Below, in pieces: positions 25,316 through 38,617 of a DNA stretch of 64,000 nucleotides. Source of the stretch: Butyrivibrio sp. (GTDB taxonomy: Bacteria > Bacillota > Clostridia > Lachnospirales > Lachnospiraceae); the NCBI GenBank assembly GCA_015056565.1, contig SVGB01000014.1, forward strand, positions 1-64,000. The letters are read 5' to 3'. Made by a program: the position numbers and the translations under genes. The first letter of the stretch is position 1; each line of letters opens with the position of its first letter. The notes under the pieces are model-generated. The model had not been told where the DNA came from and did no database searches. It worked only from the letters and a program-made list of their open reading frames with translations.

Positions 25316-27118
25316 ATGGAAAACGCAATTAGAAACGCAATTAGAAACACAATTAAATATATGCTATTTGGAATGTTTGCAGGGGCGATATTTCTTTTGA
25401 CACCAAGGACAGTCCATGCTGAAGTAAAAACCTATGAGATTGAAATGATCGATGTTGGAGATGGAATTAAGGTGCCTGCTGATTATAACAATCTTAAGGT
25501 TAAAAATGAAAAGGGTGAGTATGCTGTTTTGCCAAATCCCACAGAGCAGACCTATGAGCCTGTTCCGATTCCCTTTGAAAAATGCACATTTGATGATATT
25601 GGATGGAACATGTCAAAGGAGCTTGAAGGTGGCTATAAGGTGAAAAAGTTTTTTATGTTTGACCTTAGACCGGAACGCGAAGTTGTTATGCGTCCACATG
25701 CAGAAGGGCTCCTTCCAGATTATAACACTAAAGACGGATATGAATACTATGAAATAACTGATGGAGCCGGTAATCTGGTTTGCAGATATGGTTTTGATGC
25801 TCAGGTAGATCTCACATCTGGATTGCGACTGGTTTATCACATGATGATTGCTGAAGAGGATGGAGATGTATCATGTACGACCTATGGCGATATTCAGCCA
25901 TATAAAAGGGAAAGCGATGGAAAACAAGATATCGTCGTAGACGCTCTGGAAAAGCCCGGGGCTATATCTTATAAAGACGTAGAGCGCCAGATTCAGGAAG
26001 AATATATTTCCTCAACAATAGGTGGAGGTGACGAAGAATTTTACCAGTCAGGACTCTATCTTAAAAGTCACACGACGCTTAAGGATGGAGAGATTGATAA
26101 ATGTTACATGTATGACTACGATACTCCGGCATGGCATGAAAAAAATAATAGCACTCCGGTCATAGGGGATGGCTCTGAGGACAGCTATATGCAGATGTGG
26201 TATGACTGCAAAGATCTTGAAATCTGGAGATTTGAGATTCCTTTGGGTAAGGATTATCAAAAGGGTTCAAATGTGCCACCACAACGATATCTTGATCGAC
26301 AGATACCAACTGTTGTTCATCCAAGATACTCTGATGAAGCTTTCTATGCTTTGAAGATCCAGTATTTTAAGCCTGAATTGATGAGAGAAGGCGAATGCAA
26401 AGAGGATTTCTGGTATTTTACCAAGGAGGACTATGATTTTCTTGTGGCCAATAACATTACAAGTGCAGAAGTTATCTTTTCACAATACCCGGAAATGACC
26501 ATCAAATATAGCGAGGCATTATATGACCATGAGGCTACGATAAATGCGCTTAATAAAGCAATGCGTCAGCACAGGGATGCCATAAGCAAGATAACACAGG
26601 TAAATACTGAGGAAGAACCTAAAGATGGGGAAGGAGCACAGGACAGCAAAACATCTGGAGAGAATGCAGGAGCTACCCCGCAGTATCGGGAAGGATATCC
26701 GTATTATACTCAGAAGATCACCGGAGATGTGCCACCAATAAAGGGCATGATTCCGACAATGTGTGAAACATGGATAAAAGATGGCCATTATCATGTGTCT
26801 CTCTATGATGATAATTGGAATCGTGTATGTAAGCAGGATCTTCCTGCAGGCGACTGGTATACCCATCAATATGTGTACTTTACGTTTATATCTGTTATGG
26901 ATAATAATACTGTCGTATTTCAGATTGCAGGTTCAGACAGCCCAGTAAGTGGAAACATAAACTACGTACAAGAGTCAGATATTGAAACAGAAAATGGATA
27001 TACAGGATCTACTGACTACTTTAACCGTGATGACTACTCAGGGCCTCTTGATCAGTATGAAGGTCAGCAGGAAATTGAATATCAGACTCCTACATTAAAT
27101 GTACCAAATGAGGATTAA
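25316..27118 (+). CDS. secreted protein of unknown function, first gene of AAA+ operon
   Basis: A 600-residue exported protein. A signal peptide with hydrophobic core MLFGMFAGAIFLLT ends at VHA-E near residue 35. The mature part is acidic and rich in Tyr, Asp and Gly, with many aromatic beta-like segments (SCTTYGDIQPYKRES, WYTHQYVYFTFIS). It has no cell-wall anchor motif. The N-terminal NAIRNAIRNTIK comes from a 12-base tandem DNA repeat. AAAGGA precedes ATG 25316. The lipoprotein gene follows 4 bases later. No family was recognised; an envelope sensor or substrate role for the operon is a guess. Confidence 0.7.
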   Translation: MENAIRNAIRNTIKYMLFGMFAGAIFLLTPRTVHAEVKTYEIEMIDVGDGIKVPADYNNLKVKNEKGEYAVLPNPTEQTYEPVPIPFEKCTFDDIGWNMSKELEGGYKVKKFFMFDLRPEREVVMRPHAEGLLPDYNTKDGYEYYEITDGAGNLVCRYGFDAQVDLTSGLRLVYHMMIAEEDGDVSCTTYGDIQPYKRESDGKQDIVVDALEKPGAISYKDVERQIQEEYISSTIGGGDEEFYQSGLYLKSHTTLKDGEIDKCYMYDYDTPAWHEKNNSTPVIGDGSEDSYMQMWYDCKDLEIWRFEIPLGKDYQKGSNVPPQRYLDRQIPTVVHPRYSDEAFYALKIQYFKPELMREGECKEDFWYFTKEDYDFLVANNITSAEVIFSQYPEMTIKYSEALYDHEATINALNKAMRQHRDAISKITQVNTEEEPKDGEGAQDSKTSGENAGATPQYREGYPYYTQKITGDVPPIKGMIPTMCETWIKDGHYHVSLYDDNWNRVCKQDLPAGDWYTHQYVYFTFISVMDNNTVVFQIAGSDSPVSGNINYVQESDIETENGYTGSTDYFNRDDYSGPLDQYEGQQEIEYQTPTLNVPNED

Positions 27119-27122
27119 TACT

Positions 27123-27668
27123 ATGGAAAAGAAAAAATATATAGCAGGTATTGTGCTTTTTATGACGCTGCTTCTTGCAGGCTGCGGAAAAGAAAATGTG
27201 GCAGAAACAAACTCTGGAACAGAGGTTAGTACTACAACGGACGCCAAGGCGCTTGAAACAGAGACAGAAACTTCAAATGAAGTATCAAAAGAGGAATTTG
27301 ACCGCCTTGCAGCGGAGAATAAAGAGCTTTTGAATCAGGCTATGACTCTTATGTATGAGCAACATCAGACTTTGGCAAATGAAGACCTTCTGCCATCATT
27401 TGAATCTGGTAAATTTTATACAGATACCACGATCAGACATCAGGAAATGACAGCTGCAGCTATGATGATGCAGAATGTGATCGATGGTACAAGCGACTAT
27501 AGCTCGTTATTACCGGAGGTCCAAGACGTCAATATGCTTGAAGGAATCGAAATAGCGGACTTTGAAGAAGTTTCTAAGGAAGATCTTGAAGAGGCCATAA
27601 ATGAGGTAAGAGCTCAGAACGAAGCACTTTCTGAGCTTATCAGTAAAATGTCGCCCAATAGCAAATGA
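27123..27668 (+). CDS. lipoprotein of unknown function
   Basis: A 181-residue lipoprotein. The signal peptide MEKKKYIAGIVLFMTLLLAGC has a clear lipobox LAGC with the lipidated cysteine at position 21. An acidic Thr/Glu-rich linker and a helical region follow, including a coiled-coil-like EEFDRLAAENKELLNQA. The track start upstream is rejected because ATG 27123 gives the exact signal peptide. It lies 4 bases after the secreted protein and 39 bases before the first AAA+ gene. Confidence 0.75.
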   Translation: MEKKKYIAGIVLFMTLLLAGCGKENVAETNSGTEVSTTTDAKALETETETSNEVSKEEFDRLAAENKELLNQAMTLMYEQHQTLANEDLLPSFESGKFYTDTTIRHQEMTAAAMMMQNVIDGTSDYSSLLPEVQDVNMLEGIEIADFEEVSKEDLEEAINEVRAQNEALSELISKMSPNSK

Positions 27669-27707: not shown

Positions 27708-29669
27708 ATGATCAGATTATTCCAAAATAGGAACACTGTTAAAGGTTTTGCCTATATAGATTCATGGATCAATATGTACCTTAAGGAGGTAAGCATCGAT
27801 AATGATGATGAACTGAGGGGCGTATTAAAGCTGATATTCTTTTTTAAAAATAATGAGGACATTTCAAAGAGGGATTATCCCTTGTTTTTGAGGGATTACT
27901 TTGGAACCCATAGAGACTCTGGCTTATATGGACGCTCAAAGTTTTCGCTGGTTTTGCAAAACAACAAAGAAGCAGTGGTTGAAATCGTGATAAGTGCACC
28001 CATTTCTGAAAGTGACAAAAAGCTGCTTATAAAGACAGCCGGAATGCTTTGCGATGGAGAATGGACAGAGGATAAATTTGAAAGCGGGCTTAAATTTCTT
28101 TTATGGAATGCTGGTCAGCAGGAGGACCTTAGAGACAGGCGCTTTATGCTGGCAAACCTCCGCTATGGAATGGATAAGATCCTGGAAGATAAGGGCGAGA
28201 TCGATCCGGACAGGATACCTTCAAACATTTTCTATCTGTTCAGGTTTCCCAAGATGCAGATTGAGTCTCTTGAGAGGTTCATAATCGCTCGCTATGAAGA
28301 ATTCAATGGATCTTTAAGAGGAGAAAGAGATAAAGATGCCCTTGCCTGGTTTATAGATCAGGCAAGGGAGGTTTTTAAAGAATATCAAAATGGTAGAGAA
28401 GAGGCTCCTTTTTTCAGGCTCCTTTGTAATTTGCGTGAAGATATAGAATATGATCATGAGTATTTTGAAACCCTTGCGGAACCGGTAATTGAGTGGCTTT
28501 TGGAGGAACTTCCTTTTGCATACTTTAGCTGGTTTGGTAATGAGGATGAAAAGCAGCCCTGGCAGGACGGAGAATACTTATCATCCATGGAGCTGCTTAG
28601 GGAGATGCATACTAATCTTTTTAAAGCCCCGGATGTAGAACCGTCAAGGCTCTATGCATATTTAAACCGCTTTGTCATTGGACAGAACAGGGCAAAAAAG
28701 ATCCTGTCAACTGCAATTTATGGTCATATGAAGCGGATCAGGCACAAAAGAGAAAAGTTTCTTCCTGACGCTGTGCTCCTGGTTGGCCCATCAGGAAGCG
28801 GAAAAACTGAGCTGGTGCGGCATCTTATCGACGCTACCATGCTTCCTGCTGCCATAATTGATGTTTCAGGAATGAACGGAAGCCAGTATTCAGGGGGACT
28901 TCACAGGGAACATCTTCTGATAGAACTATTAAACAAGGCAAATGGAGACCTTGAAAAAGCACAAAACGGGATACTGTTCATGGATGAGTTTGATAAGCTT
29001 CTTATCCCATCCTATGACAAAAACGGCATAGATACCCATGATGAGGTCCAGAGTCAGCTCCTTACTGTCATCGAAGGAAGTGAGATACCCGTTACCTTCA
29101 GAGACGAAAAAATCTTGTTCGATACCTCAAGACTTCTCTTTATCCTGGCAGGTGCATTTCAGGGAATTGAAGAGAATATAAGGGAAGATTCAGATAAGAA
29201 CATGAAGACTAGTGGAAGCATAGGCTTTGATGCTTCACTACAAAAAGACAGCCAGGTAAAAATGGACTCAAAGAGTGTGACGACAGATGTTCTGATATCT
29301 TTCGGCATGAAGCGTGAGCTTGCTGGAAGGATTGGAAGCGTTGCTGTACTTGACGGTCTCTCTCGAGATGATCTTAAAAGAATCCTTACCCAGCCAAAGA
29401 ACAGCATACTAGAGAGATTTCAGGATGAATTTAATGCTCTTTGTGGTGGGGAGCTTGTTCTTGAAGATGATGTAATTGAAAGAATAGTTGATAAGGCAAT
29501 GTCTTATAAAGTTGGAGCCAGGGGCTTATCAATTGCTCTTAGAAAGATGCTTTCTCCCGTAATGTATGAGGCTCCGGATCACAGAGACTGCAGATGTGCA
29601 AAACTGTCTCTAAAAGGCGGCGAAATTTTTGCGGAGTGGATCAGCTCTTTTAAGGAGGCCATGCTTTGA
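27708..29669 (+). CDS. ClpX-like AAA+ ATPase with large N-terminal domain
   Basis: A 653-residue protein. Residues 1-310 form a new N-terminal region in place of the ClpX zinc domain. From about residue 320 the AAA+ module follows ClpX closely: Walker A GPSGSGKTE (G360), Walker B ILFMDEFDK (D426), LLFILAGAFQGIEENI, then ISFGMKRELAGRIG, TQPKNSI and sensor-2 GARGLSIALRK. The loop before the arginine-finger segment contains IGF at residues 505-507, in the position of the ClpP-docking loop of ClpX. It may therefore unfold substrates for ClpP. Its stop overlaps the next gene's TTG start. Confidence 0.85.
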   Translation: MIRLFQNRNTVKGFAYIDSWINMYLKEVSIDNDDELRGVLKLIFFFKNNEDISKRDYPLFLRDYFGTHRDSGLYGRSKFSLVLQNNKEAVVEIVISAPISESDKKLLIKTAGMLCDGEWTEDKFESGLKFLLWNAGQQEDLRDRRFMLANLRYGMDKILEDKGEIDPDRIPSNIFYLFRFPKMQIESLERFIIARYEEFNGSLRGERDKDALAWFIDQAREVFKEYQNGREEAPFFRLLCNLREDIEYDHEYFETLAEPVIEWLLEELPFAYFSWFGNEDEKQPWQDGEYLSSMELLREMHTNLFKAPDVEPSRLYAYLNRFVIGQNRAKKILSTAIYGHMKRIRHKREKFLPDAVLLVGPSGSGKTELVRHLIDATMLPAAIIDVSGMNGSQYSGGLHREHLLIELLNKANGDLEKAQNGILFMDEFDKLLIPSYDKNGIDTHDEVQSQLLTVIEGSEIPVTFRDEKILFDTSRLLFILAGAFQGIEENIREDSDKNMKTSGSIGFDASLQKDSQVKMDSKSVTTDVLISFGMKRELAGRIGSVAVLDGLSRDDLKRILTQPKNSILERFQDEFNALCGGELVLEDDVIERIVDKAMSYKVGARGLSIALRKMLSPVMYEAPDHRDCRCAKLSLKGGEIFAEWISSFKEAML

Positions 29670-31306
29670 GTATTTATTCATTTTTTGAATCCTGCGATTA
29701 CAGGACGGGAGCTTCGATGGTAAAGAGAGCCTGTACGATATTTAAAGAGCAGGAAGGGAAAAGTTTTTCAATATACGAAACTATTCTTTGGCTGTATTTT
29801 CACATCAGGACCTGTGTGCCAGAAGAAGACCAAAATGACGATACCCTGATCTCAATGCTAAACATACTTGTTCCTCTAAAAAAAGAAGGAAAGTTGATAG
29901 ATAGATGCCGCTTTGGAGAGATGATCAGAGAAGATAATGATGAACTGGTTAAGGAGATAAAAAAGGCAAGGAGTGAAAGACTTCTAAACGATCAGGAATA
30001 CATTACTCTTTATGGTGGCCGCACTTCATTTATGAGCGGCTGGACACTTGCGCGTTATGCCTGTGCAAGGGATTTTCTGTACTGGTATGCATCAGACATT
30101 GGAACAGAATATGACAGATACCGCAGAAGAGGACTTATTCGCTATATAGACACCCATGAGGAAGGAAAAGAAGTTTCTCCCATAGGTGGATGCAATTCAT
30201 CCTGGTGCAGTGAACTGTCTGATGTCATGAATGTATTTAATGTGACAAGGGATGAACTCTCAAACCGCGCTATTTCTTTTCTTGAAAAGAATACTCCAAG
30301 CGAGATCAAAAAGGAACTTGATACATATATAATTGGTCAGGACGAGGCAAAAGAGCTTCTTTCTGCTGCTGTTTTTAACCACTATTTAAGAATGGCTTAC
30401 CCTGACAAGAGACTATACAAATTTAATGTCCTTGTCATTGGTCCATCAGGAAGCGGTAAGACAGAGCTGGTACGCAGGATAAGGGAGCTGGTGGATGTAC
30501 CTGTGGTATTAGAGGATGTATCAGCGCTGGTTGCAACTCCGTTCCGGGGAAGGAATAAGGAAGAGCTATTGCTTAGGCTCATTCAGGAAGCTTCCGGAGA
30601 TCTGGAACTTGCAAAGCACGGGATCATTTTCTGCGATGAATTTGATAAGCTGTGCAAACCAAACGGAGTAAGGGGCCATGACAATAACGACATGATAATG
30701 GGGCAGTTTCTTGGAATGATGGAAGGAGCTGTCATTGACACAGCGCAGCGAACAGGGAAAAGCAGCGATGATACAGATTTCGAGATAGATACCAGCGATA
30801 TCCTGTTTGTCTGCATGGGAGCTTTTGAAGGACTTGAGGACATCGTGCTCAAGGATATGGCAAGTGAAGGAGACCAAAGCGGAGAAAATGCCTTTGGCCT
30901 TAAACCTAAGATATCTGGCCACAAGATAATGCATTCAAGGGATGTGGAACTTAAGCACCTTGTAGAGTACGGCATAAAACCAGAACTTGCAGGAAGGCTG
31001 TGCAATCTGGCAGTTCTTGATGCTGTGGACAGGGATCTTTTACTTCGCATCATGAAGGATGCAGAGGATAGCCCAATAAAGCGCATCCAGAAAGAGCTGT
31101 TTCTTGACGATAAGATCACTCTTGAATTCGAGGATGAAGCTCTTTTGTCACTGGCAGATCTTGCTTCGAAGACAGGAACAGGAGTGAGGGCTCTCAACGG
31201 AGTATTAAGAAAAGCTCTTGAAGACATTTTATTTAATGCACCGTCCATGGAAAAGGGGACAGTAGTAACGGTAACTAAAGAAATGATAGACAAGGCACAT
31301 GAATGA
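29666..31306 (+). CDS. second ClpX-like AAA+ ATPase
   Basis: A 546-residue paralogue of the preceding gene. Residues 1-200 are an unrelated helical N-terminal region. The AAA+ core has Walker A GPSGSGKTE (G259), Walker B IIFCDEFDK (D324), ILFVCMGAFEGLED, VEYGIKPELAGRL and sensor-2 GTGVRALNGVL. The docking-loop position reads NAFGLKP, so the IGF tripeptide of the first ATPase is lost. It starts with TTG 29666, overlapping the previous stop (TTGA), 7 bases after AAGGAGG. Tight coupling suggests the two ATPases are made in fixed ratio and may form a mixed ring. Confidence 0.85.
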   Translation: MSIYSFFESCDYRTGASMVKRACTIFKEQEGKSFSIYETILWLYFHIRTCVPEEDQNDDTLISMLNILVPLKKEGKLIDRCRFGEMIREDNDELVKEIKKARSERLLNDQEYITLYGGRTSFMSGWTLARYACARDFLYWYASDIGTEYDRYRRRGLIRYIDTHEEGKEVSPIGGCNSSWCSELSDVMNVFNVTRDELSNRAISFLEKNTPSEIKKELDTYIIGQDEAKELLSAAVFNHYLRMAYPDKRLYKFNVLVIGPSGSGKTELVRRIRELVDVPVVLEDVSALVATPFRGRNKEELLLRLIQEASGDLELAKHGIIFCDEFDKLCKPNGVRGHDNNDMIMGQFLGMMEGAVIDTAQRTGKSSDDTDFEIDTSDILFVCMGAFEGLEDIVLKDMASEGDQSGENAFGLKPKISGHKIMHSRDVELKHLVEYGIKPELAGRLCNLAVLDAVDRDLLLRIMKDAEDSPIKRIQKELFLDDKITLEFEDEALLSLADLASKTGTGVRALNGVLRKALEDILFNAPSMEKGTVVTVTKEMIDKAHE

Positions 31307-31688: not shown

Positions 31689-32759
31689 ATGGGAATCCTT
31701 AAGGACCTACAGGAAAAGAGAGAGAAAGAGAAGAAAGAAAAAGAGCGTGAGATAAAAAGAAAACAGAGAGAGAAAGAGTATAAAGAAAAGTACGCCGTAT
31801 ATGTGGCAGTTGAAGACGATATTAGCCGAATGATGGATCAGGTACCGCCTGATTATGTCGGCGTCAATAAAGTAATGAATAAAATAAAAGATAGCCCCAT
31901 ACCAGAATCTGGAAAGGCAATTTGGGCGCTTTGTCAGGCAGCATGTTATGTAGATTTTAATGTTCGGGCATTCTTGGGAGATGAATATGATTTTGATACA
32001 ATAACAAATTCGTTTGGAAAATATAATGAAGAAATAACAGCATTATATGAATGGTCATTGGCACGGAATGCACATGATGAAAAGAAATTTGATCATTTTC
32101 AAAAGGGATCAAATATAGAAGTTGCCTCATATGAACCGGATTATTATCGTGTTATTCCACAACTGTGTAGAGTTGGCCTTGCTCGTTGCTACTACCATGG
32201 AGAGGGTACCAGGCAAGATTTCAATAAGGCGAAAACCATTTGTAAGGATATTGTTGATAATAATTTGATTCCCAAAGGCTATGGGGATTATGAGGATGCT
32301 GAACGAATATTAAATTATATCGCAGAGTATGAAGAAGAATTAAAGCGTAAAGAGGAAGAAGCAAAGCGCAAGGAAGAAGAGGAAAAGCGTTTTGAGGAAG
32401 AGGCAAAGCGTAAGGATGAAGAAATAGAAAAACTAAAAAGTGCTATTAAAGAAAAAGACATAAAATCTGTCAATGAGAAATATCACGAAGATGTTGTAAG
32501 TGTATCACAGGAAAAACCTCCAAAATACAAAGAAGTAAAAGAGCTTCCTGATGTGAATAAAGATAACCTTTCTGATGAAGGAAAGCTATACCTTGACCCA
32601 TCTGAATATGATCAGATATTTGCTTGGATGCTGTGCTGTAACAATGGGTATTTTATTACAGATGATCGACCAGATGAAAAGGGAAGATATACCGATAATG
32701 ATCGGATCAAGGCAGATGCCTTCAGGGCATCTGTAGTCTATGATGGAGTATTGGGATGA
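31689..32759 (+). CDS. coiled-coil protein with Sel1-like repeat
   Basis: A 356-residue soluble protein. It begins with a very basic and acidic coiled coil (residues 5-35). The middle holds a Sel1/TPR-like segment, GLARCYYHGEGTRQDFNKAK, preceded by a weaker repeat. A second Lys/Glu coiled coil spans about 217-255, before a C-terminal domain with YDQIFAWMLCCNNGYF. Sel1 repeats mediate protein contacts. It overlaps the next gene by 4 bases (ATGA). Confidence 0.7.
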   Translation: MGILKDLQEKREKEKKEKEREIKRKQREKEYKEKYAVYVAVEDDISRMMDQVPPDYVGVNKVMNKIKDSPIPESGKAIWALCQAACYVDFNVRAFLGDEYDFDTITNSFGKYNEEITALYEWSLARNAHDEKKFDHFQKGSNIEVASYEPDYYRVIPQLCRVGLARCYYHGEGTRQDFNKAKTICKDIVDNNLIPKGYGDYEDAERILNYIAEYEEELKRKEEEAKRKEEEEKRFEEEAKRKDEEIEKLKSAIKEKDIKSVNEKYHEDVVSVSQEKPPKYKEVKELPDVNKDNLSDEGKLYLDPSEYDQIFAWMLCCNNGYFITDDRPDEKGRYTDNDRIKADAFRASVVYDGVLG

Positions 32760-34889: not shown

Positions 34890-35597
34890 GTGAATATAGG
34901 AAAAGTGGAATTTGAACAAAGAGGTGATGGCGCTGCGGGTAATGGATTTGACGCAAGGGCATCAATGGATGCTCTTGCAAAGCTTCAAAATGCCTCTGAT
35001 GGGAGAAAACGCAGAGAACTTGCGGCTTTTTATCGGGATGCTGCAAGAAAAAGAAGCCCTGAATATATGAAAAATCTCTCAAAGCTTGTGAAACTCAGAG
35101 CAGAGAGAGACAGAATCCTTGCCGGTGATGAAGCAAAAGCTGGGAATTCATCTGAAGAAAATTACGAGACTAATGCGGCTTTAGAGACATCACCAAATGA
35201 GAGCGCGGAGAATCTGCAGAAGACCAAAGAGATAAAAACTCTTGAAGAAATAGATAAAGAAATTGAAGAAGTTGGCAGAGACCTTGAAAAGGAAATGCCA
35301 CAGGGAAGCTTTTTCCTGACACTTATCTTCTGGAGTATTTATCAGGATGTTCTGGCGCAGCAGGGAATAATTTCGCCTGGCGAGCATGAGGCTTACACAG
35401 ATGTAGAAGAGCTTATCAAGAGGTGTGGAGCTGAAAATAACGAGAAAGCAAGAGAGCAGCTTCGACGTGGTGACAGTGTGCTTCGGAATGAGGGCGCAGG
35501 ATGCATGGCTGTTGAAATTTATCTCGATGCCATTTGTGTGATCTACCCTGATGGAGCTGTAAAGGTGCTCAGAGGGGACCCTGATCTTGGGGTATGA
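34890..35597 (+). CDS. coiled-coil protein of unknown function in AAA+ operon
   Basis: A 235-residue soluble protein with a GTG start. The N-terminal region is helical with a basic patch (GRKRRELAAFYRDAARKRSPEY). A central acidic coiled coil (about 105-135) leads to a C-terminal region with FFLTLIFWSIYQDVLAQQG, a short hydrophobic helix, and a beta-rich end GAGCMAVEIYLDAICVIYPDGAV. It lies 25 bases after the LWED protein and 38 bases before the triple-AAA gene. No family was recognised. Confidence 0.65.
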   Translation: MNIGKVEFEQRGDGAAGNGFDARASMDALAKLQNASDGRKRRELAAFYRDAARKRSPEYMKNLSKLVKLRAERDRILAGDEAKAGNSSEENYETNAALETSPNESAENLQKTKEIKTLEEIDKEIEEVGRDLEKEMPQGSFFLTLIFWSIYQDVLAQQGIISPGEHEAYTDVEELIKRCGAENNEKAREQLRRGDSVLRNEGAGCMAVEIYLDAICVIYPDGAVKVLRGDPDLGV

Positions 35598-35635: not shown

Positions 35636-38617
35636 ATGTCTCAGGAATTTCTAAGCAAAAGTGTGGGACTTATAGTAGGCCAAAAGAATTATGTTCTTTT
35701 ACATCAGGGAGAGTCACTTCCTATAGCTGAGAGACATCTTGATATGGGCTCACTTGGAGGAGAAATCGTTATACAGGTTTCGGAAGGTGACAGTGACAGC
35801 CCGACAGATGTGTATTTACTGGGTAGAGGAGTCCTTAGGGCTCCAAAGCACGAAAAAAAGCAGCGTCTTATAGTGACACTATCTGCTGATGAGAACGAGA
35901 AGATAAGGTTATATATAAAGGACACAGCAAGTGGTAAGGAAAGTGAGGATTTCTTTTCTCTGGCTGGAATAAAAGAACCTGAAGTTGCCAATGAGGAAAC
36001 CGATGTTGATCTGAAAGAAGATGACGCTAAGGCTAAGGATACAGCTGATGAAAACAGGCAGGAAACTACGAAAAGTGAAAGTGCAAAAGCGCTTGCTTCA
36101 CAGGTTGATAAGCATTCAGAAAGGCGTGTAAACGAAGAAATTGAGGAACGGTTTTCTGATAAACACCTGATCGGATTATCTGATGTTAAGCGTGATCTGA
36201 GTGCACAATATAATACGCTTCTTATGGGGGATGATCTTCGAAGGAGCGGTAGTGGCGGTGAACTACTTATTCCATGGAACTTTTTTATTGGTGGAGGTTC
36301 AGGCTCTGGCAAGCATGCTATAGCAAGGATCATAAGTGAACTTCTGTATGATAACAGCATGACAGACCGCAAAGAACCGGTTATTACCAATGCTATCTCT
36401 ATAGACGCTTCAAAACCGGCAGAGTTTTTTGAGCAGATAGCATCTGAAGGTCGAACGGTTATCATAGAAAATACAGAGCTCCTTATTTCGGACGATGAAG
36501 ACGGTAAAGATAATGTCAAAATGTGGCTTTTGATCTCTTCGATCCTGGAAGCTGCAAATGAAAAACAGAACTGTTTCTATATTTTCCTTGGTGAAAAGGA
36601 GGCTATGGAAAAACAGATCCAAAAGCTGCCAAGATTGTCCAGAGTAGTGACATCTATCAGTATTCCTTCATACGACGTGGAAGAGCTAAAGACTATAGCA
36701 CTTGGATTTATAAAAGACCAGGGATTTAAACTTGACCCAGATGCAGAAGATATCTTTGACAGAACGATCCGAAGTGAAGCTGTTCTTCCGGGATTTGCAG
36801 GTGCAAACGCACTTAAGGTACTTATTCGTGACGCTGTCAAAAGAAAGAGCTTCCGTTACATGGAAGGCGGAGAGCTGGATAAGCTCATTGTTGCCCAGGA
36901 TTTTGTTGAGTCAGAAGACAGTGGAGAGACACTTGAAGATATCTTAGCAAAGCTGGATGATATGACTGGCCTTGCCCGTGTAAAACAGGAAATTCAGAAC
37001 ATTATAGAGGATGTGAAATTTGATAAAAAGATGCGCGGCGCAGGAAGTAAAGGGCGTAGCAGATCTCTTCATATGATGTTTATAGGAAATCCAGGAACTG
37101 GTAAGACAGATACTGCAAGGCTTGTGGCAAAGATTTACGGAAAACTTGGACTTTTGCCAAAACCGGATCTTTTCATAGAAGCTGACAGATCATCCCTTGT
37201 TGGCGCATATATGGGTCACTCCGAAAAGGCCACAAAGGAGCTGGTTGAGAGGGCTATGGGCGGAGTACTGTTTATTGATGAGGCCCACAGGATCGTATCA
37301 GGAGATCAGGATGACTACGGAAAACAGGCCTTTGGTGTGCTGATCAAGATGATGGAGGATTATCGCGACCGTTTCATGGTGATCTTTGCAGGTTATGACA
37401 ACATGGAGCAGGTATTGTCCCAGTACGACCCTGGTATAACCAGCAGAGTACCGACAAAACTTCACTTTGATGATTATTCTCAGGAAGAACTCTTTCAGAT
37501 CTTTGAAGGAATGCTTCGCAAAAATGACTTTCCAATGGTTCTTGATGAAGAGGCAAGGAAAGAGGCTGTTGCCCTTATAAGGGAACGTTCAACAGTACCA
37601 AACTTCGGTAATGCCCGGGGAGTCAGAAATATAGCAGATGACGTTATAAGGATTGTGAAGAGAAGATTGGCAAAATCGGATGATGAGGCACTTTCTCTCT
37701 ATGAGGACGGCGAGAACTTAAAGCCAATAACTGTATTAAAAGAAGATATCATGGAGAGCGGAAACAGAAAGAGCAGCGGCCCAACTCTTGAAGAATATAT
37801 GCAACAGCTTGATGAGATGATAGGTCTTTCCAAGATCAAGGAAGAAGTACGGGTAATGCAGGATAGGATCAACCTGGAACAGGCCCGTATCAGAATGGGT
37901 GAAGAACCCAGCGATAGCTTTTTCCTTCACTCCGTGTTCTTTGGCAATGCAGGTACTGGTAAAACTACAGTTGCAAGACTAATTGGCAAGATATACAACA
38001 AGATGGGGGTTCTTCCTGCCGGTGATAAATTTGTTGAGGTTACAAGAGGAGATCTTGTTGCAGAATATGTGGGACAGACTGCAATAAAGACAAGGCGCGT
38101 TGTAGAGTCAGCGATAGGAGGAGTTCTTTTCATTGACGAAGCATATGCTCTGTGCACCGGACCAGACGATCAGTTTGGCATGGAGGCTCTTAATACACTT
38201 CTTACTCTTGCAGTGGATTATCGCGACAGACTGATGATCATTCTTGCAGGCTACGAGGGGCCAATTAAGCGCCTTATGAACCTGAACCAGGGAATAGAGC
38301 GTAGATTCCCTAATCAGTTCCATTTTGAGGATTATTCAGAGGATGAGCTCTATGATATTTTCTGCTACAAGCTCAAAAAGAACAACAGAGTTCTTGAAGA
38401 TGGTGCTTCTGACGTCATAAAGGAGATCATCAGAAAAAGGATGAAACGAAACGGTTTTGGCAACGCAGGCGGAATAGAAAATATCATGAAAGACCTTATT
38501 GCTGCGCAGTCAGTTCGCCTTAGGCCGATGCTGGATTCTGAAGACCTGACACCGGAGCTCTTTAGAACTATTACCTTAGAGGATGCGCAGAATCTGCTGA
38601 CAGCCGGAAGGGAGTGA
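35636..38617 (+). CDS. triple AAA+ protein with Hsp70-substrate-domain-like N-terminus
   Basis: A 993-residue protein. Residues 1-105 resemble the beta-sandwich substrate domain of Hsp70: SVGLIVGQKNYVLL, GESLPIAER, IVIQVSEGDS, LLGRGVL, then a DxNxK-like beta pair. Three AAA modules follow. Module 1 has GGGSGSGKH (from G219), with His where Ser/Thr is usual and a poor Walker B (VIIENTELL), so it is probably inactive. Module 2 (GNPGTGKTD at G484, LFIDEAHRI) and module 3 (GNAGTGKTT at G770, LFIDEAYAL) are intact CbbX/SpoVK-type ATPases. It is the last gene before a strong terminator. It likely remodels protein assemblies together with the ClpX-like pair. Confidence 0.85.
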   Translation: MSQEFLSKSVGLIVGQKNYVLLHQGESLPIAERHLDMGSLGGEIVIQVSEGDSDSPTDVYLLGRGVLRAPKHEKKQRLIVTLSADENEKIRLYIKDTASGKESEDFFSLAGIKEPEVANEETDVDLKEDDAKAKDTADENRQETTKSESAKALASQVDKHSERRVNEEIEERFSDKHLIGLSDVKRDLSAQYNTLLMGDDLRRSGSGGELLIPWNFFIGGGSGSGKHAIARIISELLYDNSMTDRKEPVITNAISIDASKPAEFFEQIASEGRTVIIENTELLISDDEDGKDNVKMWLLISSILEAANEKQNCFYIFLGEKEAMEKQIQKLPRLSRVVTSISIPSYDVEELKTIALGFIKDQGFKLDPDAEDIFDRTIRSEAVLPGFAGANALKVLIRDAVKRKSFRYMEGGELDKLIVAQDFVESEDSGETLEDILAKLDDMTGLARVKQEIQNIIEDVKFDKKMRGAGSKGRSRSLHMMFIGNPGTGKTDTARLVAKIYGKLGLLPKPDLFIEADRSSLVGAYMGHSEKATKELVERAMGGVLFIDEAHRIVSGDQDDYGKQAFGVLIKMMEDYRDRFMVIFAGYDNMEQVLSQYDPGITSRVPTKLHFDDYSQEELFQIFEGMLRKNDFPMVLDEEARKEAVALIRERSTVPNFGNARGVRNIADDVIRIVKRRLAKSDDEALSLYEDGENLKPITVLKEDIMESGNRKSSGPTLEEYMQQLDEMIGLSKIKEEVRVMQDRINLEQARIRMGEEPSDSFFLHSVFFGNAGTGKTTVARLIGKIYNKMGVLPAGDKFVEVTRGDLVAEYVGQTAIKTRRVVESAIGGVLFIDEAYALCTGPDDQFGMEALNTLLTLAVDYRDRLMIILAGYEGPIKRLMNLNQGIERRFPNQFHFEDYSEDELYDIFCYKLKKNNRVLEDGASDVIKEIIRKRMKRNGFGNAGGIENIMKDLIAAQSVRLRPMLDSEDLTPELFRTITLEDAQNLLTAGRE

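Follow-up and report, generated by a model that had tools for sequence, protein, structure and literature searches.

The window, by which we mean the whole 64,000-nt stretch analysed, lies on contig C33 of a metagenome-assembled genome (G000; 3.04 Mb, 87% complete), and Rfam and tRNA scans over its full length gave no matches. It holds two adjoining genes for ClpX-family AAA+ proteins, here called ATPase1 and ATPase2, which open a cassette of seven genes (Table 1). Direct reading of the junction places the TTG start of ATPase2 over the stop of ATPase1, with AAGGAGG upstream, so the translation of the two genes is probably coupled.

Table 1. Features of the two ATPase genes and of the cassette genes that follow them, in window coordinates
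Feature	Position	Strand	Basis or remark
ATPase1, ClpX-family AAA+, 653 aa, helical N-region and IGF docking loop	27708..29669	+	ORF; TIGR00382
ATPase1 N-domain, about residues 1-175, homologous to ATPase2 N-domain	27708..28232	+	hhalign; no Pfam match
ATPase1 Walker A, GPSGSGKT (360-367)	28785..28808	+	alignment
ATPase1 pore-1 aromatic, Y394, QYSGG replacing GYVG	28887..28889	+	alignment
ATPase1 Walker B, ILFMDEFDK	28971..28997	+	alignment
ATPase1 docking segment, IGFDASL (505-511), unchanged in the orthologous ATPase1	29220..29240	+	alignment, codons
ATPase1 arginine finger, R541 (ELAGR)	29328..29330	+	alignment
ATPase2 ribosome-binding site, AAGGAGG, inside ATPase1 3' end	29652..29658	+	read directly
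ATPase2, ClpX-family AAA+ paralogue without IGF tripeptide, 546 aa, TTG start	29666..31306	+	ORF; TIGR00382
ATPase2 N-domain, homologous to ATPase1 N-domain	29666..30190	+	hhalign
ATPase2 docking-position segment, NAFGLKP (408-414); orthologue SSFGMKP	30887..30907	+	alignment
Small conserved cassette protein, ~102 aa, no known family; kept in L011	31357..31665	+	start reset to conserved Met, GGAGG upstream
Cassette protein p356, weakly similar to Sel1 proteins, middle part coiled-coil-like	31689..32759	+	conserved in L011
Sel1-repeat cassette protein, 702 aa	32756..34864	+	PF08238 1.5e-11; conserved in L011
Cassette protein p235, without known family; conservation strong in C-terminal half	34890..35597	+	comparison with L011
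Tandem AAA protein, 993 aa, two SpoVK/CbbX/EccA-type modules	35636..38617	+	TIGR02881; 57% identity in L011

Our searches recovered one intact orthologous cassette, in the same genus (L011, also seen as L020/G831, assembly RUI315). All seven genes keep their order in the two loci; the flanking genes differ and the genomic sites are unrelated, and the cassette is therefore a discrete unit. By tblastn, the window and L011 proteins are 49% identical for ATPase1 and 59% for ATPase2. Intact cassettes occur in 2 of the 79 species of the genus, and remnants of ATPase1 were found in two more of its genomes, one a 172-aa N-domain with a stop near the contig end (G826; L017:1501-2019, C36) and the other only 27 residues long (G781; L022:6435-6515, C52). 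The window's own genome alone was matched when we searched for the ATPase1 N-domain in 397 family genomes, for the small cassette protein and for full-length ATPase2 (at 1e-85) in 391 class genomes, and for p235 in 399 phylum genomes. As far as sampled, the cassette is confined to one Lachnospiraceae genus, judging from these sequence comparisons.

The surroundings of the cassette and of its remnants share some features. A similar leader with a terminator-like hairpin, which gave no Rfam match, lies upstream of the ATPase1 remnant in both G781 and G826. In the window the cassette is preceded by genes for a 600-aa exported protein (25316-27118) and a lipoprotein (27099-27668); homologues of the 600-aa protein flank the G781 remnant (L022:2885-6393), two lipoprotein genes related to 25316-27118 follow it, and none stands beside the RUI315 cassette. 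Genes of this type may accompany the cassette in certain genomes, RUI315 not being one of them. Several possible affiliations were set aside. As for anti-phage defence, PADLOC gave AAA-level similarity only (IetA, DolB), with one marginal match among the non-AAA genes. A scan of IMG/VR with the N-domain returned no viral relatives, the plasmid matches in tblastn were ordinary ClpX only, and a ClpX-like gene on a rumen plasmid (L014) keeps MGF and has no cassette genes adjoining.

The last gene of the cassette bears on what kind of machinery is encoded here. Its 993-aa product scores 469.6 bits against TIGR02881, above the cut-off of 422.95, and by eye its N-terminal part appears to include one more AAA module, whose motifs (GGGSGSGKH, IIENTELL) are degenerate. 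The novel N-terminal region has no Pfam match, and an Hsp70-like substrate-binding domain suspected there by eye was dropped for want of Pfam support. In 245 class genomes this region found AAA-level relatives, without other cassette genes. Proteins of the SpoVK/CbbX/EccA clade are dedicated chaperones with no peptidase association (PMC10659427), and the cassette protein carries two modules of this clade; it differs from them in being multi-module, in its novel N-region and in sitting with ClpX-type unfoldases. A gene for a related tandem AAA protein of SpoVK/CbbX type adjoins genes that by eye resemble Hsp70 and J-domain genes in another Clostridia family (L065:683-13399; G562:C7), which suggests that such proteins recur in chaperone clusters. 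Because the clade is chaperone-only, models in which ClpP takes part have a serious competitor in the view that the entire cassette is protease-free. Both ATPases would then be remodelling chaperones, and the IGF of ATPase1 would be inherited or would bind a cassette partner.

Both ATPases resemble ClpX over the AAA+ module. ATPase1 matches TIGR00382 over residues 311-628 with 205.6 bits (NF003745, 221.5 bits) and ATPase2 with 248.0 bits (NF003745, 254.4 bits). These scores lie below the ClpX equivalog cut-offs (370.75 bits for TIGR00382 and 359 bits for NF003745), so the two proteins are ClpX-like and not ClpX. Both have the large and small ClpX-type AAA+ domains, with intact Walker A/B motifs, arginine finger and sensor 2. 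The aromatic residue of pore loop 1 is also kept, as Y[ST]G in ATPase1 and [FY]RG in ATPase2 versus YVG in ClpX. In the alignment, the RKH loop and the RDV pore-2 loop are replaced in both paralogues and in both orthologues of each, and these changes in the pair fit the protease-free reading.

At the docking position the two paralogues part. A sequence-only reading of the locus had placed an IGF tripeptide in ATPase1 at residues 505-507, where ClpX carries the loop that docks on ClpP, and NAFG at the same place in ATPase2; both placements hold. Codons 505-507 (29220-29228) read ATA GGC TTT, that is I-G-F in the context SIGFDASL, and in the MAFFT alignment this tripeptide falls on the IGF of the ClpX encoded in the same genome and on residues 408-410 (NAF) of ATPase2. 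The corresponding stretches of the canonical ClpX (NSIGFNAEI) and of a second ClpX (TSIGFDADL) of the same genome stand in register with ATPase1. ATPase2 reads NAFGLKP in a loop of equal length. In ATPase1 and ATPase2 alike, the GAF motif and the tripeptide are 23 residues apart, and the tripeptide and the GMK/GIK motif 27, which gives the NAF-over-IGF register without any gap.

In E. coli, ClpX touches ClpP with the side chains of I268, F270 and V274, and each of the changes I268L, F270L and V274A severely impairs binding (PMC7112951). The V274-equivalent residue is Leu in both ATPase1s, as in the second ClpX of the genome (SIGFDADL), and Pro in both ATPase2s, whose I268- and G269-equivalent positions hold polar or small residues. 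Relative to canonical ClpX, ATPase1 has about 5 extra residues on the N-side of this loop; altered loop lengths lower the affinity of E. coli ClpX for ClpP (PMC7112951).

A two-residue shift of ATPase2, made with compensating gaps by one of two larger alignments, sets FGL/FGM over IGF, so the loss in ATPase2 can also be read as degeneration to FG[LM]. ATPase2 would then still dock on ClpP through the shifted tripeptide, and both ATPases would be ClpP partners of different affinity. The conserved F-G-[LM]-K-P-K of both ATPase2s and the full length of their loop go with that alignment. The ungapped register, however, matches both flanking distances of ATPase1, I268L or V274A alone severely impairs ClpP binding in E. 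coli ClpX (PMC7112951), and an aromatic first residue in the tripeptide is found in no relative among 116 sequences except in this shifted ATPase2 register. We consider docking by ATPase2 very improbable.

The 116 ClpX-family sequences comprise ClpX and the second ClpX from the window's genus, ClpX from the order, 83 sequences from IMG/VR contigs, one plasmid copy, one divergent 334-aa protein and the four cassette ATPases. In this set, which is biased toward the best-scoring query matches and holds near-duplicates, 114 carry [IVM]G[FIL] at the docking position, and the two exceptions are the ATPase2 orthologues. Retention of IGF in ATPase1 is therefore ordinary; what calls for explanation is its loss in ATPase2. 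Being nearly universal in the family, the motif need not have been kept in ATPase1 by selection within the cassette. Two divergent ClpX-like proteins of the same genus (L064:2192-3196, G843:C232, 334 aa; L165:4679-5716, G831:C12, 345 aa), both with W-K-G pore loops, have IGF at the docking position too, and the latter, from the genome with the second cassette, reads SIGFGAD. That the tripeptide is kept even in very divergent members makes it weak evidence of function and lends weight to the protease-free reading. It also stands among the observations in favour of a division of labour in which ATPase2 has given up the tripeptide.

The L011 pair reads TIGFDASL in ATPase1 and SSFGMKP in ATPase2. 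The one intact orthologue thus keeps IGF, and a [LIV]-G-[FL] tripeptide, as in unfoldases that partner ClpP, stands in both ATPase1s and in neither ATPase2 (NAF, SSF). A comparison of the two ATPase1s shows 7 of 7 identical positions in IGFDASL and 6 of 24 in the loop flanks (4 and 2 per 12-residue side), for which a hypergeometric estimate from these counts gives ~6e-4; with two intact cassettes, conservation within the cassette is a comparison of two sequences per family. This constancy amid a fast-changing loop, the V274-equivalent contact included, speaks against a protease-free ATPase1. So does the ability of ClpX homologues that do not work with ClpP to lose the motif, as in yeast Mcx1 (PMC10886707) and in ATPase2.

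The placement of the loop was also examined in AlphaFold2 monomer models, for which proteins of the window, L011 and IMG/VR were aligned in 43 rows. Over most of each AAA+ module pLDDT is >90, and the best PDB fold matches of both ATPases are ClpX chains in ClpXP (TMt 0.84-0.85 for ATPase1 and 0.83-0.86 for ATPase2). The IGF of ATPase1 is predicted on loop 502-525, between helices 487-501 and 526-532, at the position of the ClpX IGF loop, as the sequence-only reading would have it; the loop thus falls between the sensor-1 helix and the region of the arginine finger. The pLDDT of ~70 there is as expected of a flexible loop. By analogy with ClpX, this monomer model would have the docking loop of ATPase1 face ClpP.

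Which ClpP could be involved is constrained by the genome. A co-conserved ClpP paralogue had been suggested as something to look for; the genome has one ClpP only, directly adjoining the canonical clpX at the housekeeping locus, and the cassette contains no peptidase, ClpP included. This single ClpP has a C-terminal Arg aligned with the R192 region, which binds the IGF loop in E. coli (PMC7112951). A PF00574 search of the RUI315 genome (G831, a 95%-complete assembly) returned no ClpP. We do not take this as ClpP loss: the whole tig-clpP-clpX-ysxC block is absent, with canonical clpX, trigger factor and YsxC missing too, and an assembly gap is the simpler reading. Since trigger factor and YsxC, which in the window's genome are encoded as neighbours of clpP and clpX, are lacking as well, the absence of ClpP there cannot be used for or against docking. 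The lack of a peptidase in the cassette speaks for the reading in which neither ATPase works with ClpP, and on balance we regard that reading as possible, on the unlikely side.

The sequence-only reading had unrelated N-terminal regions replace the zinc domain of ClpX. As regards the zinc domain this stands: neither region matches the C4 zinc-binding domain or anything else in Pfam, lax thresholds included, and the alignment shows no CxxC...CxxC arrangement. The two regions are, however, related to each other. An initial profile comparison of the two N-domains was weak (probability 12), but when restricted to residues 1-175 and with the G826 fragment added hhalign gave probability 81 and a score of 39.5, against 19.5 for the best of 100 column-shuffled controls. 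The motif WT-x9-FL-x-W-x-A is present in 5 of 5 N-domain sequences, and the helices predicted for the N-regions in the AlphaFold2 models run parallel over ~160 residues. In a tree of the AAA+ modules, ATPase1 and ATPase2 group together (support 97/85), each on a long stem (1.88 and 1.83 changes per column), and the program warns of possible long-branch attraction. The homology of the N-domains points to an old duplication of one gene that already combined N-domain and ClpX module. The simplest history suggested by these sequences is that the duplication predates the split of the two cassettes and that the docking motif was lost on the ATPase2 stem.

The sequences, their conservation and homology, the place of the loop in the models and the make-up of the cassette are established by this analysis; from them we infer assembly into hexamers, docking on ClpP, separate rings, recognition of clients and a division of labour, in the following form. 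The two ATPases would be an old paralogue pair in which a common new helical N-domain has replaced the ClpX zinc domain. An ATPase1 hexamer would pick cassette-specific clients through this N-domain, the RKH loop that serves for ssrA tags being absent, and its IGFDASL loop would let it dock on the one housekeeping ClpP, leading to client degradation. ATPase2 has retained its motor and a loop as long as that of ATPase1, but neither the tripeptide nor the V274-equivalent hydrophobe; with these gone, it would most likely be a ClpP-independent unfoldase or remodeller in a ring of its own, acting in the company of the Sel1 proteins and of the tandem AAA protein of SpoVK/CbbX type. Of the pair, only ATPase1 probably feeds proteins to ClpP. 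The complete model, with an accessory ClpP-docking unfoldase and a ClpP-independent remodeller in separate rings sharing out the work, is our tentative preference, held at somewhat less than an even chance.

The sequence-only reading had pictured the two ATPases as subunits of a mixed or regulatory ring, for which we found no direct support. In such a hetero-hexamer the number of IGF loops would tune the strength of ClpP docking. The overlapping stop and start with a strong internal ribosome-binding site imply coupled expression of adjoining genes, the N-domains and AAA+ modules are homologous, and both ATPases are conserved together, all of which would suit subunits of one ring. On the other hand, each ATPase has its own complete ATP site, with Walker A/B, arginine finger and sensor 2, so that either can form its own ring; separate rings are the simpler assumption, and a mixed ring is neither required nor excluded by the intact sites. 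In work on E. coli, removal of loops from the ClpX ring is said to weaken ClpP binding steeply, and a ring with IGF in half of its subunits would thus be expected to be a poor ClpP partner. It is the IGF loops that form most of the interface between ClpX and ClpP (PMC7112951, PMC7707817), and in ClpXP and ClpAP structures five or six of the loops are engaged (PMC7707817). Taken together, a mixed ring seems to us rather improbable. A broader picture, in which an AAA+ machine of a kind not described before, made up of ClpP-docking and ClpP-blind sisters with a common new N-domain, Sel1 adaptors and the tandem ATPase, acts on one set of clients and sorts them between degradation and remodelling, possibly with subunit exchange within one ring, we would call unlikely.

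Splits of this kind between IGF-bearing and IGF-less unfoldases are already known. In Actinomycetota, ClpIa and ClpIb are members of one unfoldase family that differ in having or lacking the ClpP-docking tripeptide, and proteolytic and independent roles have been proposed for them (PMC10149685), as we propose for the pair here. ClpI is, however, double-ringed and ClpC-like, its ClpIb loop is shortened (~5 aa), and its genes lack strongly conserved neighbours (PMC10149685), whereas ATPase1 and ATPase2 are single-ring proteins, the ATPase2 loop has full length, and the pair adjoins in a fixed seven-gene cassette. An IGF-less ClpX is also known: Mcx1 of yeast mitochondria is, like ATPase2, without the tripeptide and is thought to act as unfoldase or chaperone only, but yeast has no known ClpP (PMC10886707), while the cell of ATPase2 has ClpP and an IGF-bearing sister encoded next door. 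With ClpX itself, both ATPases share Walker A/B, arginine finger, sensor 2, a loop at the IGF position and the best PDB fold, and ATPase1 also the IGF and a hydrophobe at V274; both differ from it in lacking the zinc-binding domain and the RKH and pore-2 motifs and in having a new helical N-domain, and ATPase2 further in lacking IGF. As far as these tools show, what is new is a side-by-side single-ring pair in a fixed cassette, with a common new N-domain and a full-length loop altered at its contacts.

If the preferred model is right, the pair would offer a natural side-by-side test of what makes a ClpX-type unfoldase a protease partner. The strength of the comparison would lie in sister ATPases with homologous N-domains and equal-length loops that differ at the docking contacts. 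Accessory operons would, in that case, borrow the single ClpP of the cell. The question of a mixed ring can be tested directly with the two proteins.

The genus also has a second ClpX (ClpX2), present above the curated cut-off in 13 of the 13 genomes examined (L002, G000:C41:16580-17923; L056-L063) and in 0 of 8 same-order genomes of other families. These proteins of ~510-570 aa have a Ser/Gly/Asp-rich N-terminus, keep IGF and show a KNAM-like sequence in place of RKH. The copy in the window's genome (L002, 557 aa) has a docking segment, SIGFDADL, nearly the same as that of ATPase1, from which it differs in its presence throughout the genomes examined, its score above the ClpX cut-off and its retained Cys-rich N-terminal region.
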